From an uncultured Pseudomonadota bacterium (GTDB taxonomy: Bacteria > Pseudomonadota > Gammaproteobacteria > Burkholderiales > Methylophilaceae), in contig CAINBI010000102.1 in assembly GCA_903846555.1 (NCBI GenBank), forward strand, positions 1-44,918: DNA of 44,918 nucleotides, in the 5' to 3' direction. The notes under the pieces are model-generated. The model was not told the origin of the DNA and made no database searches. It saw only the letters and a program-made list of their open reading frames with translations. Position 1 is the first letter of the stretch. Every line of letters begins with the position of its first letter. A program made the translations under genes and the position numbers. Below are positions 1-44,721 of this stretch, piece by piece.

Positions 1-2
1 AA

Positions 3-122
3 TATGGCTACAGTTGTGTATGTTTATACGTAATCACTAATCAGGATCAGAAAAAAATCATCAAGATTATTGGCGGAAAACAGCTGCCTTTAAAAACCTG
101 CAAAGCAATAAAAAAACCGTAA
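3..122 (+). CDS. 3' end of an unidentified cassette ORF (partial)
   Basis: An open frame enters from the left edge and ends in TAA at 120-122, giving 39 residues rich in Lys and Ile (it contains KKIIKIIGGKQLP). I do not recognise the family. It stops 7 bases before the R''-type core of the attC site at 130, which is the usual spacing for the gene of an integron cassette. Its reality rests on that spacing and on the absence of stops, so confidence is modest. The start lies outside the window. Confidence 0.4.
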   Translation, partial: YGYSCVCLYVITNQDQKKIIKIIGGKQLPLKTCKAIKKP

Positions 123-129
123 TGCATAA

Positions 130-189
130 GCCTAACCCATCAGTCAAGCGGGACTCGCTAAAGCGCGCCCCTTGTGTCAAACGTTAGCC
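130..189 (+). repeat. attC-like recombination site 1
   Basis: The site begins with GCCTAAC (130-136, fits the RYYYAAC core) and ends with GTTAGCC (183-189, close to GTTRRRY). Between them lie imperfect arms, CAAGCGGG against CCCCTTG, that can fold into a stem. It shares TCAAGCGG (144-151) with the sites at 2331 and 3242. The next ORF starts 5 bases after the core, as expected for a cassette. The R' core departs from consensus at one base. Confidence 0.7.
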
Positions 190-193
190 TTAA

Positions 194-844
194 ATGGATA
201 TCACGACTGAAAAAGTATGCTCAATTTGTGGAAAGTATGTTGACTTGATAGGGGCGTTCCTATCTGCAGCGGAGAAAAATACGATCTGTTTCGACTGCTC
301 GCTTAATAAGTTGAGCGCTGAAAATCCACTTTTAAATTACATATTAACCGAGCAGGAAAAAGAACGAGAGAACCCTAGTCCTAGTCCTGACAGAATGTAT
401 TGGATAGCTCTCGTAGATAAGGTTTGTAGCGCTCCTGATGATTTTTTATGTCTGTCGCCAGAGGAGCTTACCTATTACGCTGTATCGCTCTTCGCTGGTG
501 AAATTGACAACGGGGGCATTCATCAGTTTTTTACCAACAGCTCTGGAGATATTTACTTTTTTGTTGTTAAAGGGTTACAAGAATTAAATGCTAATGTGAC
601 ACTAACGCTCCTTACGGAAGCCAAACATGTCATCTTCCCCAATTGTGATCCACCTGAAGACCGTATTCTTCGAGCTACAATGATTGATTGGCCAGATCCG
701 GATGATGATCCCTCATACCAGAAAAAATGGGCCGAAATCGAACAAATAAGCAAACAACTACAAGAAGACCCTGACAACCTTGCCTATTTAGTTCATCAGT
801 ATGCAGTTCACTATAAATTATTTCCAGATTCAAATCAGGGCTAA
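194..844 (+). CDS. zinc-ribbon plus DUF4375-type protein
   Basis: This 216-residue soluble protein has two parts. Residues 9-35 carry two CxxC pairs (C9/C12 and C32/C35), a likely small zinc ribbon. Residues 70-200 resemble the DUF4375/DMP19-like family, with the motif NGGIHQFFTNSSGD at 106-119. No enzymatic function is established for that family that I can cite. The ATG sits 5 bases after an attC core and has no good ribosome-binding site, common for cassette genes read from an upstream promoter. The stop codon overlaps an R''-like GGCTAAC at 839-845. It is most simply the cargo of an integron cassette; cargo of this kind is often accessory or defensive, but that role is inference. Confidence 0.75.
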   Translation: MDITTEKVCSICGKYVDLIGAFLSAAEKNTICFDCSLNKLSAENPLLNYILTEQEKERENPSPSPDRMYWIALVDKVCSAPDDFLCLSPEELTYYAVSLFAGEIDNGGIHQFFTNSSGDIYFFVVKGLQELNANVTLTLLTEAKHVIFPNCDPPEDRILRATMIDWPDPDDDPSYQKKWAEIEQISKQLQEDPDNLAYLVHQYAVHYKLFPDSNQG

Positions 845-1067
845 CGATTAAGAAGCTGGCGCATCAAGGCTATGCAAGATAAATAGGCGCGAAAAAGCAT
901 CATTGCCGCTATAGCGCGGGCTGCGACATGGCGGATTTGCTGGGTTATAGTGAGAACAGCCTAAAAAGTGAGAAGCCAAAAAAAGTAATAAATGAAGACG
1001 ACCGTTTGGCTTGAAAAAAATTTACCCGAAGCTGAAATGGACGGATAGAATGGGGTTTTTCAACGTC
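845..1067. other. non-coding stretch between two cassettes
   Basis: No convincing gene is seen. The stretch starts at an R''-like core and ends at a consensus R' core (1068-1074), but 236 bases is too long for an ordinary attC site. It contains the inverted repeat AAGCCAAA (about 973) against TTTGGCTT (about 1006). It may be a damaged or composite attC, or the remains of a small cassette. Confidence 0.35.
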
Positions 1068-1074
1068 GTTAGGC
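1068..1074 (+). repeat. attC R' core half-site
   Basis: GTTAGGC matches GTTRRRY exactly and lies 27 bases before the start of the metallopeptidase-pilin gene. It marks the probable left boundary of that cassette. Its R'' partner is not obvious; candidates are GGCTAAC at 839 or GCCTAAA near 960. Confidence 0.45.
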
Positions 1075-1100
1075 TTATTACTTACAGAGGGAATTGAACT

Positions 1101-2294
1101 ATGAACGAACTCGTTTATCCGCGTGAGCGCACACTCGGCACTATCACCTTAGTGCTCGGTCTTCTGGTCTGGTTAGGCTTAATCATCGGCACCTTCGGTG
1201 TCGCACTGATTGGGCTGGCCCTTGGCTTCCTGCTTTATTTGTTCGCTCAATCCGCACTGATCGCGCACATCAAAGGCAATGGTGTCGAGTTGTCAGAAGC
1301 GCAGTTCCCCGACCTGTACGCACAATTCACAGCATGTTGCGACAAGCTACAGATGAAGACGCGTCCGCAGGCATATATTCTGAATGGTAACGGTGGTCTC
1401 AATGCATTCGCCACCAAATTTCTCGGCACGCAATATGTCGTATTGATGTCGAGCGTGGTCGATGCAATGGACAAACATGTCGACGGTGTGCGCTTTTACA
1501 TTGGACACGAGCTTGGTCACTTGCGCATGAAGCATCTGAGCGGACACCTGCTACGTTGGCCTGTGCTATGGTTACCACTACTCGGCGCGGCTTATTCTCG
1601 CGCCCGCGAGAGCACATGCGACCGCCACGGACTCGCTTGTAGCGGGTCGCCAGAAGGTGCCGCGCAAGCGCTGGCCGCATTGTCTGCGGGTGCCGAACGC
1701 TGGAAACAACTCGACATAGCGGCCTACGTCAGCCAGACCATCCACGCCTCTGGCTTCTGGATGTCATTCCACGAACTGACTGCTGGCTATCCTTGGCTGA
1801 CCAAGCGCGCAGCTCGCGTAATGAACACCGAAGCACCAATGCCCCGGCGCAATGGCTTCGCCTATCTGTTGGCGGTATTCATTCCATACGCCGGGCGTTT
1901 GGGAGCGGCCTTCGGCTTTCTGATGCTGGTTTATATAATCGGTATCTTGGCCGCCGTAGCGATTCCAGGATACCAAGACTATACGGTCAAGGCAAAGGTC
2001 AGTGCCGCCATTATAGGCTCACAGAATGTACGCGAGACAATAGGCAACTACTACCAAACAAACCAGAAGGTTCCTGAATCACTAGAAATTCTCAACATCC
2101 GTTCGCAACTGGTTGATGGTAGCCAATTGTCGCTCGAACCCAATAAGATGGTACTTACCGTTAAAACAAAGCAAGGCGAACTCATCTTCACACCCACAGA
2201 AGATGCTGAAGGTCGTATCGTATGGGGCTGTTCTAACGGTAAAGGAATAAAATCAACACAGCTTCCACCGACATGCCGCAGTACTGAAAATTAA
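1101..2294 (+). CDS. M48-family metallopeptidase fused to a pilin-like C-terminal domain
   Basis: This 397-residue protein has two membrane segments near residues 13-58, then the zinc motif HELGH (136-140) inside GHELGHLRMKH and a downstream E170 in RARESTCDRHG that fits the third zinc ligand of M48 (HtpX/Ste24-type) peptidases. After a linker, residues 271-295 read FLMLVYIIGILAAVAIPGYQDY, the hydrophobic helix of type IV pilins, followed by a roughly 100-residue pilin-like globular part with two cysteines (C379 and C393 region). The Gly-Phe-Thr-Leu-Ile-Glu cleavage site of true prepilins is not preserved, so processing is doubtful. A GAGGGA ribosome-binding site precedes ATG 1101. It lies between attC-type sites at 1068 and 2331, so it is probably a cassette gene. 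The substrate is unknown. Confidence 0.85.
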   Translation: MNELVYPRERTLGTITLVLGLLVWLGLIIGTFGVALIGLALGFLLYLFAQSALIAHIKGNGVELSEAQFPDLYAQFTACCDKLQMKTRPQAYILNGNGGLNAFATKFLGTQYVVLMSSVVDAMDKHVDGVRFYIGHELGHLRMKHLSGHLLRWPVLWLPLLGAAYSRARESTCDRHGLACSGSPEGAAQALAALSAGAERWKQLDIAAYVSQTIHASGFWMSFHELTAGYPWLTKRAARVMNTEAPMPRRNGFAYLLAVFIPYAGRLGAAFGFLMLVYIIGILAAVAIPGYQDYTVKAKVSAAIIGSQNVRETIGNYYQTNQKVPESLEILNIRSQLVDGSQLSLEPNKMVLTVKTKQGELIFTPTEDAEGRIVWGCSNGKGIKSTQLPPTCRSTEN

Positions 2295-2330
2295 AATGGT
2301 AGTCACTTCGACTTATCCGTGGTTAGGTCA

Positions 2331-2384
2331 ACCCAACGTTCAAGCGGAATGCCTAACGGCACCCCTTAATTCAAAACGTTGGGC
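2331..2384 (+). repeat. attC recombination site 2
   Basis: This is the best attC in the window. The R'' core is ACCCAAC (2331-2337) and the R' core GTTGGGC (2378-2384), near-perfect complements. Internal arms AACGTT/AACGTT and GCC/GGC flank a TAAC spacer. TCAAGCGG at 2340-2347 is shared with the other two sites. The length of 54 bases is at the short end for attC sites. Confidence 0.8.
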
Positions 2385-2387
2385 ATT

Positions 2388-2846
2388 ATGAGCACACTTT
2401 CAAACATTATTCGTCTCATAGGCATATTCGGACTAGGTGCTGCGTTTGGGTATATCGCAACCAGCCAAGTACCCATGAACACCAAATTTATAACTAGTGA
2501 CACCCCTGCTGTGATGAAGGCACTTACCCGTTTATCTGAAACCAAAATCCCGCAGAACGGGCTTAACTGCGAAGTGAACGGAACATCCGCCACAATTGAC
2601 GGAATGACGTTTAATAACGACGTATTGGTTGGTGACTTTATTGCCCATTACTTGAGTTGGTCGTTTCTACACAAGAATGCTGACACACCTAGCCTGATGT
2701 GCGAAGGCAAAGACATTCAGCAGTGCACTTGGTCATTTGGAGAAAAAAAATCAGAAGAGGGATGGAATAGAATTTTACGATTCAAATACAATCAAGCGTC
2801 AAGTGCTATTGACCCTCAAAGTTTGGAGTGTATTGATGTACCTTGA
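2388..2846 (+). CDS. small membrane-anchored cassette protein of unknown function
   Basis: The ATG at 2388 lies 3 bases after the attC core and gives 152 residues; a TTG nine bases earlier lies inside the core and is less likely. Residues about 7-25 form one hydrophobic helix (signal anchor), followed by a polar domain presumably in the periplasm. Cysteines occur in LNCEVNG, LMCEGKD, QQCTW and LECID, which could form two disulfides. I do not recognise the family. The stop is 12 bases before GCCCAAC at 2859, the start of the cassette's own attC-like sequence, so this is a textbook single-gene cassette. Confidence 0.65.
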   Translation: MSTLSNIIRLIGIFGLGAAFGYIATSQVPMNTKFITSDTPAVMKALTRLSETKIPQNGLNCEVNGTSATIDGMTFNNDVLVGDFIAHYLSWSFLHKNADTPSLMCEGKDIQQCTWSFGEKKSEEGWNRILRFKYNQASSAIDPQSLECIDVP

Positions 2847-2858
2847 ATCTCTGTTTCA

Positions 2859-2910
2859 GCCCAACGAATAAGGTTAGATTGTGATCGCCGTAGCGAGCCA
2901 CAATCTTAAC
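2859..2910 (+). repeat. R''-like core plus an inverted repeat (degenerate attC?)
   Basis: GCCCAAC (2859-2865) matches the attC R'' core and directly follows the cassette gene. No matching R' core or TCAAGCGG motif follows at normal distance. Instead there is a hairpin, GTTAGATTGTG (2873-2883) against CACAATCTTAAC (2899-2910), with a small inner pairing. It is either a terminator-like structure or a scarred attC site. Confidence 0.4.
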
Positions 2911-2938
2911 TGGCGAAGTTGATGGAGGTGTTTTAACG

Positions 2939-3040
2939 GTGCGATTTACTTATCGCGCCTCAATTATTCGAATTATTGGCGCTGATTACTGGCGCAAAGG
3001 AAAGGCAATTTATGAGCGCGAAAATCAAATACACGAATGA
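2939..3040 (+). pseudogene. C-terminal fragment of a BrnT-type toxin
   Basis: A 33-residue reading frame ends in TGA at 3038-3040 and contains YRASIIRIIGADYWRKGKAI, resembling the last strand and helix of BrnT toxins (ribonuclease-like partners of BrnA). The first about 60 residues of a BrnT are absent, so it cannot encode a working toxin. It overlaps the following antitoxin start by 29 bases; overlap in this gene order is normal for brnTA operons. Assignment is from memory of family C-termini, so it is moderate. Confidence 0.5.
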
Positions 3041-3247
3041 ACCATTAGGTGACATTAAAGTCATTACAGACTTTTTACCATCACTGGCTGAATTATCATT
3101 CAATGAAGAAGCTATCAAAGTAACATTGTCACTAAGTAAAAAAGTATTGATTTTTTTAAGTCTGAAGCGACTAAGAACCATACACAATACCAGCGCATGA
3201 TTCGCCGTTTGGTTGATGCTTATGTTGAGTCACAAAGTCCGTACTAA
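3012..3247 (+). pseudogene. BrnA/CopG-type antitoxin, frameshifted
   Basis: From ATG 3012 the frame reads MSAKIKYTNEPLGDIKVITD, then VTLSLSKK, typical of BrnA-like antitoxins. At a run of six A (3138-3143) it slips, and the continuation is found in the next frame as IDFFKSEATKNHTQYQRMIR followed by RLVDAYVESQSPY and TAA at 3245-3247. Restoring one A would give a normal ribbon-helix-helix antitoxin of 78 residues. Without it the protein ends at 3200. The real stop overlaps the following attC-like site. A frameshifted pseudogene is most likely; slippage or a sequencing error in the A run is possible. Confidence 0.65.
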
Positions 3248-3300
3248 CCATCACTCAAGCGGGACGCCTAACGGCATCCTCAGTCTGGTGGAATAGCATG
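3242..3300 (+). repeat. attC-like site 3, degenerate, array boundary
   Basis: TACTAAC (3242-3248) is one base off the R'' core, followed by TCAAGCGG (3255-3262) and a GACGCC/GGCATCC arm pair around TAAC. These match sites 1 and 2. No proper GTTRRRY core is found near 3300 (GTTTGAG at 3301 is the closest). It seems to be the eroded last attC of the array, about 100 bases before the core gene lgt. Confidence 0.6.
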
Positions 3301-3407
3301 GTTTGAGGCTGGCTTAGCATTTGTCGGACTATTATTATTTCGATTAATCCTTTATCGATTAAAACTTAGGTAAAATTCAACCTTACTTAAATCGGTAATT
3401 AACACTT

Positions 3408-4190
3408 ATGTTTATTCATCCAGAATTTGACCCCATCGCAATTCATATCGGCTCCTTTGGTATTCATTGGTATGGCTTGATGTATTTAATTGGTTTTTTG
3501 GCATTTTTAGGTTTAGGAAAATGGCAGATTAACCACCGCACTTGGCACGGCTGGACTTTACCAATGCTGGATGATGCGCTGTTTTTCGGCGCATTAGGTG
3601 TCATATTAGGTGGTCGCTTAGGTTATGTGCTGTTTTATCAATTGAGCTATTTTGTGCATCACCCAGCTGAGATTTTAGCGGTTTGGCAGGGCGGCATGAG
3701 CTTTCATGGTGGATTTTTGGGCGTATTAGTCGCCATGTGGATTTTCGCGCGTAAATACCATCTTAAATGGCTGGGCATTATGGATTTTGTTGCGCCATTG
3801 GTGCCAATTGGTTTGGGTGCTGGTCGTATGGGCAACTTTATTAATGGTGAGCTTTGGGGCAGGGTTACCAATGCAGAATACGGCATGGTGTTTCCTCGAG
3901 TCGATAATTTGTTGCGCCACCCGTCTCAACTTTACGAGTTTGGTTTAGAAGGCATTGTGCTATTTTTAATGCTATGGATTTACGCGGCAAAACCGCGTGC
4001 TACTGGAGCCATTTCAGCCTTATTTTTAATCGGCTACGGTAGTTTTAGATTTTTAGCTGAATACACCCGCGAACCTGATAGCTACCTAGGCTTACTATCT
4101 ATGGGCTTTAGTATGGGTCAGTGGCTGAGCTTGCCTATGATATTGCTGGGTTTATGGCTATTTAAATTCAGTCAAAAACAACACCGCTGA
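3408..4190 (+). CDS. lgt: prolipoprotein diacylglyceryl transferase
   Basis: Lgt moves diacylglycerol from phosphatidylglycerol to the lipobox cysteine of prolipoproteins, the first step of lipoprotein maturation in the inner membrane. The 260-residue length is normal. Visible signatures are FHGGFLG (H100), the Lgt signature [14 protein letters not shown] (139-152) with its arginine, and RHPSQLYEF (170-178). Seven hydrophobic segments are evident. It is the first core gene after the cassette array and is read away from it. No strong ribosome-binding site precedes ATG 3408; upstream is an A/T-rich stretch with CGATTAA repeats. Confidence 0.97.
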
Positions 4191-43284: not shown

Positions 43285-44721
43285 CTAACCCTGCTTCACA
43301 GAGCCAATCTTAACAATTTTCAGTGTGTTCGTGCCACCAGGACTGCCAATAGGCTCGCCAAAGGTCAGTAACACCAAATCCCCTGGATTCACTACTTTTT
43401 GCTGTAGCAAAACTTGCTCCATCTCTTGTAAAACTTCATCTCTATTCTTATCATCCTGACTGATCGGATAAGGGTAAACGCCACGATGCAAAGTGAGTTT
43501 TCTGCGTGCATATTTATCGGGTGATAAGGCATAAATCGGCACTTCAGCATCCGCACGCGACAACCATTGCGCTGCGTTGCCAGATTGCGTAAGCGCAGCA
43601 ATGGCCTTGACTTTGAAGTGTTTAGCCGTGTAGATAGCCGCAGCAGCAATAGTCTCATCGGTACGAACAAACATTTCATCTAACTTTTGCGCATGATATT
43701 GGCTAAGATATTCTTTTTCGGCCTCCATCACCACACGATGCACCGCTTGTACGGTTTCTAATGGATATTGACCAGCCGCAGTTTCTGCTGATAACATCAC
43801 CGCATCGGTGCCGTCTAACACGGCATTGGCAACATCAGACACTTCCGCACGGGTTGGGATTGGGCAACTAATCATAGACTCCATCATTTGCGTGGCGGTT
43901 ATCACTAATTTATTTTGTGCGCGTGCCATGCGTATCATACGTTTTTGCAGCCCAGGCACGGCGGCATCGCCCACTTCCACACCAAGGTCGCCGCGCGCCA
44001 CCATAATGGCATCAGAAGCTTCAATAATCGCCTCCAGATTTTCAATGGCCTCGGCACGCTCAATTTTAGCGATAATACTCGCCGTGCCGCCCGCTTTTTT
44101 AACCAAGCTACGCGCAAGCTCAACATCAGCGGCGGATTTTGGAAATGAAATCGCGATATAGTCGGCTTCCAACTTAACCGCAGTCAGAATATCTTCTCGG
44201 TCTTTTTTGGTGAGCGCGTCAGCCGACAAGCCGCCGCCTTGGCGATTGATGCCTTTGTTATTGCTAAGAATGCCCCCGCTCAAAACCATGCAATGAATTT
44301 GATTGCCTTTAATTCTATCCACTTGCATGGTAATGCGACCATCGTCCAGCAATAAAACTACACCTTCTTTGACTTCTTGCGGCAGGGTTTTGTAATCTAA
44401 ACCAACATGGTCCTGAGTGCCCAATTCACAATCGGCATCAAGGATGAATAAATCGCCCATTTTCAGGCTAATTTCACCAAACTCAAATTTACCAATGCGA
44501 ATTTTAGGACCTTGCAAATCACACAACACGCCTATGGGTCGGTTTAACTTAGCGGCAATTGCACGTACTATTTCTGCGCGCTTAATATGATCATCCGCGC
44601 TGCCATGTGAAAAATTCAAACGCACAACATTCACGCCTGCAGTAATCATGCGTGCCAGCATTTCCTCACTACTTGACGAAGGCCCTAGCGTGGCAACAAT
44701 CTTGGTTTTACGTAACGTCAA
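43285..44721 (-). CDS. pyk: pyruvate kinase
   Basis: The enzyme makes pyruvate and ATP from phosphoenolpyruvate. Start is TTG 44721 with AAGGA nine bases upstream; length 478. The protein begins LRKTKIVATLGPSS and shows RLNFSHG, the active-site block IIAKIERAEAIENLEAII with the catalytic lysine, MVARGDLGVEVG, and TQMMESMI. The C-terminal allosteric domain ends with TLKIVKIGSV. It is the usual class II type; regulation cannot be told from sequence. Confidence 0.97.
   Translation of the reverse strand: MTLRKTKIVATLGPSSSSEEMLARMITAGVNVVRLNFSHGSADDHIKRAEIVRAIAAKLNRPIGVLCDLQGPKIRIGKFEFGEISLKMGDLFILDADCELGTQDHVGLDYKTLPQEVKEGVVLLLDDGRITMQVDRIKGNQIHCMVLSGGILSNNKGINRQGGGLSADALTKKDREDILTAVKLEADYIAISFPKSAADVELARSLVKKAGGTASIIAKIERAEAIENLEAIIEASDAIMVARGDLGVEVGDAAVPGLQKRMIRMARAQNKLVITATQMMESMISCPIPTRAEVSDVANAVLDGTDAVMLSAETAAGQYPLETVQAVHRVVMEAEKEYLSQYHAQKLDEMFVRTDETIAAAAIYTAKHFKVKAIAALTQSGNAAQWLSRADAEVPIYALSPDKYARRKLTLHRGVYPYPISQDDKNRDEVLQEMEQVLLQQKVVNPGDLVLLTFGEPIGSPGGTNTLKIVKIGSVKQG

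Follow-up and report, generated by a model that had tools for sequence, protein, structure and literature searches.

Large sedentary chromosomal integrons, holding many cassettes with like attC sites and with toxin–antitoxin cassettes among them, are known from Vibrio. For Xanthomonas, the available part of one study (PMC12444791) describes a chromosomal integron beside ilvD across the genus, with attC clusters elsewhere and with intI downstream of ilvD and mostly inherited with the species. It also gives one case, X. arboricola, with an identity of 97.1% for ilvD and of 68.2% for intI, interpreted there as an exchange of intI; one integrase swap at a fixed site is already published. The part of PMC2426708 available for Methylobacillus flagellatus KT describes an integron that has intI and cassettes of mainly hypothetical genes; neither ilvD nor lgt is given as its context, and ilvD is nowhere mentioned. 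The available part of PMC10872708 reports no bona fide integrons among the small insertions of Methylopumilus and OM43. As for the spread of 'sedentary' integrons, transfer of the platform between lineages is one of several explanations given for the discord between IntI and host trees in the available text of PMC8618304. Our literature search, with most subscription journals outside it, returned nothing on 'chromosomal integron' in Methylotenera, nothing on worn distal integron ends, and no ilvD–lgt or prfC integron sites for the genus.

The DNA analysed here (the window, 44,918 nucleotides) is the entire contig C102 of an uncultured Methylophilaceae genome of 2.58 Mb in 170 contigs. Judged by lgt, its nearest named relatives are uncultured Methylophilaceae and Methylotenera genomes, and Methylotenera is the probable genus of the source. 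At the left the contig is broken off within an array: attC site 1 follows directly on a cassette tail at 1–129, and the stretch further left lies outside the assembly contig. Positions 1–3300 are very probably the distal end of a sedentary chromosomal integron lying between ilvD and lgt (Table 1). The finding is a real one of a known kind, an ordinary chromosomal integron.

The motif TCAAGCGG stands exactly at 144, 2340 and 3255, where a first-pass annotation made from the sequence had placed it. Alone it is weak evidence, with 118 copies in the 2.58 Mb genome and five in the window, two of them (14333 on the minus strand and 22102 on the plus strand) unrelated to the sites. We used a covariance model, R1, made with a hand-drawn attC fold from nine aligned sites, of which C147 supplied eight, C86 one and the window none. 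These training sites were found through the first-pass motif, so the shared motif is built into R1; the cores, spacing and stems are not built in by that choice. The search returned sites 1 and 2 at E=6.6e-14 and E=5e-10, site 3 being below significance by itself, and with filters off the only other window matches up to E=10 were site 2 read on its opposite strand (E=2.8) and 43443–43476 (E=4). On the bottom strand, site 1 folds with z −2.68 (2 of 200 shuffles equal or better) and site 2 with z −4.98 (equalled by 0 of 200), the fold of site 3 being unremarkable (z −1.43; 15 of 200 equal or better). Across 38 R1-aligned matches, which include weak and opposite-strand ones and were fitted to R1, so that the pairing test is biased in favour, 90.2% of cells are paired, against at most 52.5% if the alignment is slid, and 13 of 16 pairs carry changes on both sides, against a shuffled mean of 4.4. 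No Rfam family matched the sites. As whole sites, 1 and 2 are beyond chance, and the attC sites are of one type with R and L pairing, as in a sedentary chromosomal integron. The R''/R'-type cores called earlier at all three positions are present at site 1; site 2 has an imperfect core on the left, and at site 3 the R' core is gone.

Table 1. Features at the left end of the window and the evidence for each
Feature	Position	Strand	Evidence or remark
Cassette tail, clipped by contig edge	1..129	+	C102 first base; first attC directly after
attC site 1, complete; R'' GCCTAAC 130-136, R' GTTAGCC 183-189	127..192	+	R1 65.1 bits, E=6.6e-14
Cassette gene, DMP19-like protein, 216 aa, ends at R''-like core	194..844	+	PF14300 E=3.2e-18
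Insertion-sequence end remnant, breaks into cassette end	846..1074 (about)	+	six genome copies
Cassette gene, M48-type metallopeptidase, pilin-like C-terminus, 397 aa	1101..2294	+	PF01435 E=1.1e-14
attC site 2; R' GTTGGGC 2378-2384, left core imperfect	2323..2387	+	R1 49.4 bits, E=5e-10
Cassette gene without family, 152 aa	2388..2846	+	no Pfam, NCBIfam or PADLOC match
Hairpin-forming segment, after R''-like core	2859..2910	+	near-copy on C158; fold z -3.95
Decayed BrnT-type toxin-antitoxin cassette	2911..3247 (about)	+	93.7% over 331 bases vs C168:4611-4941
attC site 3, worn, R' core gone	3238..3294	+	R1 15.3 bits, E=0.15
Conserved lgt upstream region (TTAAAACTTAGGTAAAAT)	3331..3390	+	precedes lgt in genomes with and without integron there
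lgt, chromosomal gene beyond array	3408..4190	+	PF01790 E=6.4e-80

From Table 1, the cassette layout bounded by attC sites that had been proposed for this stretch is supported, the cassette genes running in one orientation between the sites with the insertion-sequence (IS) remnant as an interruption. The ORF starts, with ATG at 194 and at 2388, come 4 bases past R' of site 1 and 3 bases past R' of site 2, a spacing in line with that noted earlier, but the intervals do not hold single ORFs as then described: between sites 1 and 2 there are two, with the IS-end remnant between them, and between sites 2 and 3 there is one plus a broken toxin–antitoxin pair. The first-pass annotation had also missed the IS remnant, the decay of that pair and the recurrence of the ilvD–lgt site in the genus. 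PADLOC gave no match at E≤0.01 for the products of 194–844 and 2388–2846, the latter also having none in Pfam or NCBIfam. The pilin-like end of the metallopeptidase, translated from 1971–2291, matches PF00114 (E=7.3e-5). Copies of the IS-end remnant lie on C102, C158 (two), C80 and C47 (two), with a common right end and differing left ends, and one on C158 terminates an ORF in which a DUF772 transposase domain is recognised (E=3.3e-7). The remnant supplies an R'-like GTTAGGC at 1068–1074, which was considered as the R' half of a long attC and rejected because all six copies have the same right end, including those on C80 and C47, two contigs without an R1 match at E≤1 (150 of 230 genome candidates scored). 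That 846–1074 is an unusual attC that captured an IS is improbable. The hairpin repeat at 2859–2910, 92% identical over 52 bases to C158:1057–1107, is possibly an unusual attC. In the decayed toxin–antitoxin cassette, the toxin gene lacks its head and the partner ORF is broken over two frames. The near-copy on C168 has a whole toxin (PF04365 E=6e-21) and a partner without a Pfam match, named antitoxin from its position. A short ORF at 3299–3373 was ruled out as a gene, since it overlaps the conserved lgt upstream region; it has no Pfam match. In other contigs, the cassette arrays include a HicA/HicB-type toxin–antitoxin pair on C168 (L058 1398–1807, minus strand) and, between two attC sites on C147 (L017 142–1970, minus strand), a two-gene restriction–modification system with an Eco29kI-type endonuclease (PF09517 E=4e-71) and a C5 methylase (PF00145 E=8e-60).

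The first-pass annotation had envisaged that the array, or a cluster of attC sites without an integrase, continues to the left. This proposal is supported: the same genome contains an intI gene and further sites. An IntI-type tyrosine recombinase of 336 aa, full length, is encoded off the window's contig, on C43 (3,031 bases), and scores 471 bits with TIGR02249 against a cut-off of 265; it is the only match above the family cut-off in the genome, the other 13 falling below. On one side it adjoins a doc-type toxin gene (TIGR01550) and a small gene that we take to be abrB-like, and on the other a first cassette with a partial attC. The doc-type toxin/abrB-like pair (L009 448–1060, minus strand) also stands by intI at ilvD, at prfC and at other places in relatives, and may travel with the integrase. 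Over the genome (150 of 230 candidates scored), R1 gave at least 28 matches at E≤1 and at least 27 at E≤2.5e-4, the latter on eight contigs: at least 7 on C168, 6 on C159, 8 on C147 and 2 on C102, and at least 1 each on C86, C43, C158 and C81. Nine of the 27 are training sites of R1, and these are among the at least 25 that lie on contigs other than the window's. The sites on C86 (L036 7003–7407, plus strand) run off the contig beyond genes that are presumably pgk, gap and a tkt-like gene of central metabolism; they are either array pieces away from ilvD–lgt or a misassembly. At its left end C43 carries two copies of a 229-base repeat, which is matched at 99% by the left end of C49, 165 bases short of ilvD; no further place has that identity over more than 40 bases. 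Because the repeat is common to C43 and C49, we infer that the intI contig is linked to the ilvD contig in this genome.

Comparison with relatives gives the setting of the locus. With a cut-off of E≤1e-60, intI is present in 24 of the 37 genomes from the genus and in 10 of the 24 from elsewhere. R1 matches at E≤1e-3, with up to 86 candidates scored per genome, occur in at least 27 of the 37 and at least 3 of the 24. Among 21 relatives (a survey that leaves out the partial matches of G004 and G024 and two extra G014 copies), intI adjoins ilvD in 11 (G001, G007, G014, G016, G017, G021, G023, G025, G030, G033 and G036) and prfC in five (G003, G009, G019, G027 and G034), neither gene being seen by intI in the remaining five (G010, G011, G013, G022 and G032). 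The place beside prfC is thus a second recurrent integron site (L226, L227, L229, L237 and L241). The order ilvD–intI–attC–lgt is found on a single contig in G036, G014 and G016; ilvD, its identity confirmed with family models, faces lgt across the integron in relatives, and in 10 of 20 fetched relatives R1 matches lie upstream of lgt and on its strand, with a weak match in one of the ten. The array of G001 is long (at least 86 R1 matches at E≤1e-3), with one contig starting at ilvD–intI and another ending at lgt (C5 and C8). Twelve genomes carry ilvD and lgt on one stretch without intI between them (G003, G005, G011, G012, G013, G018, G019, G022, G027, G028, G032 and G035), the gap being about 60 bases in G005 and G028 and holding a GGDEF/EAL gene in G003, G013, G019 and G027; R1, run on seven of the twelve stretches, gave no lgt-strand match. 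The upstream regions of ilvD and lgt are conserved whether or not a genome has the integron. Docking of IntI at a GTTAGGC-like sequence before ilvD was considered and found unsupported: in an alignment of 12 filled and 11 integron-free rows both flanks of the sequence are kept in most genomes, so the boundary lies elsewhere. Outside the genus, nine intI stretches, from the ten intI genomes, had no ilvD, lgt or prfC beside intI.

The window's attC scores fall from 65.1 to 49.4 to 15.3 bits, which supports the earlier suggestion that the oldest end is here, with erosion rising towards lgt. To place this in the genus, 12 lgt loci were searched with the R1 filters off, keeping matches on the lgt strand upstream of lgt and dropping opposite-strand matches and one below 12 bits. 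In the nine arrays with at least three sites, the window array included, the score falls towards lgt (within-array permutation p=0.0016, weak 12–20 bit matches near lgt being counted), and the site nearest lgt is the lowest in seven of nine, against an expectation of 1.9. Under a 20-bit cut the seven arrays left give p=0.0076, with the nearest site lowest in five. The fall is graded over nine sites in G023 (rho 0.9) and over five in G014 (rho 1.0); the G007 array is reversed (rho −0.6) and that of G001 flat (rho 0.02), with only the site nearest lgt low (52.0 against 64.5–83.0). In G022, away from ilvD–lgt, the weak sites seem to be the ones adjoining intI. Remnants by lgt are common to pairs of genomes at matching distance (G016/G023 over 101–250 bases, G007/G033 over 224–437 bases), and the three long common cassette segments found stand at unlike distances from lgt. 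So do the other common segments, apart from matches next to intI and a 100-base match of G000/G001 about 3.1–3.3 kb from lgt, over attC 1.

The preferred reading of 1–3300 as the distal end of a chromosomal integron draws on attC sites oriented to lgt, on the presence of a full-length intI elsewhere in the genome, on the locus order in three relatives and on the score trend. New cassettes would enter by recombination at attI beside intI, older ones would be pushed towards lgt, and near lgt both attC sites and cassette genes would decay, of which the lgt-side site without a right core, the IS remnant in a cassette end and the broken last toxin–antitoxin cassette would be the signs. That the sites are chance repeats, or some repeat family other than attC, has next to no probability. 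The commonness of the motif and the lack of an Rfam family are what such repeats would have in their favour, but the E values from a model trained outside the window, the paired changes, the cassette layout and the presence of intI speak against them, and for sites 1 and 2 refute them. A second alternative is that the sites beside lgt form a CALIN, an orphan remnant without an integrase of its own, the C43 intI serving some other array. The window's contig indeed lacks intI, C43 having the only match above the cut-off; intI and the window array are on different contigs, with C147, C159 and C168 between them unordered; and attC matches also occur on C86, C158 and C81, so that some sites lie elsewhere; and in five relatives intI stands by prfC. 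Against this, the intI contig is joined to the ilvD contig by a repeat that occurs at high identity nowhere else, the integron of relatives has ilvD on one side and lgt on the other, and the cassette-bearing C147, C159 and C168 fit the missing interior. A CALIN is quite improbable here, and the C43 intI probably serves the window array.

The score fall may reflect something other than age, if terminal sites are free to decay for want of a downstream cassette that depends on them or if the joints on the lgt side stem from imprecise recombination, which we consider possible, though on the unlikely side. The trend comes largely from the single site nearest lgt, and in G001 no other site is low. 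The graded falls in G023 and G014 argue the other way, as do lgt-side remnants held at matching distances while long cassette segments stand at unlike ones. Loss of attC function would then follow age, as the preferred reading has it.

Unexpectedly, the integrase gene at these places seems to have been exchanged on several occasions. When 25 IntI proteins (21 from the genus, 4 from elsewhere) are set on a tree, the 12 that sit at ilvD–lgt, this genome being placed there by inference, require seven changes of place, at least six forced by well-supported branches, with a shuffled mean of 8.7 and values as low in 97 of 500 shuffles; the five at prfC require four. With rpoB, for which the tree has 20 genomes (G017 gave no match), there are five changes for ilvD–lgt (three forced) and three for prfC (one forced). 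Since the changes are fewer on the rpoB tree, place weakly appears to track species somewhat better than IntI does. Four sets of rpoB sisters at one site, each supported at 100/100 (G000/G033; G014/G025/G036; G016/G023; G027/G003/G019), have IntI proteins for which a single clade is rejected by AU tests (p=3.4e-7, 1.3e-4, 1.1e-20 and 1.0e-5, respectively), tests that were not blind, the sets having been chosen with the IntI tree known. In the disagreeing pairs, DNA identity is 91–96% for rpoB, 83–89% for lgt, 86–90% for ilvD and 88–89% for prfC, against 65–75% for intI; the agreeing pairs G036–G025 and G003–G019 have 92% in intI, and G016/G033, with only 84% in rpoB, have 89%. Along the locus, G014/G036 keep 85–95% through ilvD and about 130 bases of the intI 3' end and then 56–76%, identity in G016/G023 drops inside intI past its first 180 bases or so, and that in G027/G003 is mixed (59–87%). 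The conserved intI 3' end may be due to selection rather than to a breakpoint. Binning error is an unlikely source of the disagreement, because intI and its flank share one contig in the sister sets, this genome excepted.

We hold it to be evenly balanced whether the genus has a few fixed docking sites (ilvD–lgt and prfC) at which the integrase module, often with abrB–doc, is exchanged repeatedly, the site and, at least in some cases, an lgt-side remnant staying. If so, the site and the old cassettes would endure, and the integrase would be open to replacement. The recurrent sites and the integrase exchange are the part that deserves specialist attention: how sedentary integrons spread and yet stay in place becomes testable with sister species that have different integrases at the same site, and complete single-contig loci in such species permit the breakpoints to be located. 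With its attC sites ranging in order from intact ones to dead ones, the worn lgt end allows loss of recombination to be compared with decay of sequence.

Taken together, the locus resembles the Xanthomonas integron in lying at the side of ilvD across a genus, in having attC clusters elsewhere and in an exchange of intI. It differs in the position of the integrase, which is downstream of ilvD in Xanthomonas and here on the 5' side, between ilvD and lgt; intI is on the 5' side of ilvD in all 11 genomes that have these two genes on one contig. The word lgt is absent from the Xanthomonas text (PMC12444791). It also differs in inheritance, intI mostly following the species there and four sister sets disagreeing here. 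With Methylobacillus flagellatus KT it shares the presence of an integron in a related methylotroph. Like the Vibrio integrons it can hold many cassettes with like attC sites, as in G001, and toxin–antitoxin cassettes, but the arrays of the present genus are mostly smaller and have a worn end by lgt.
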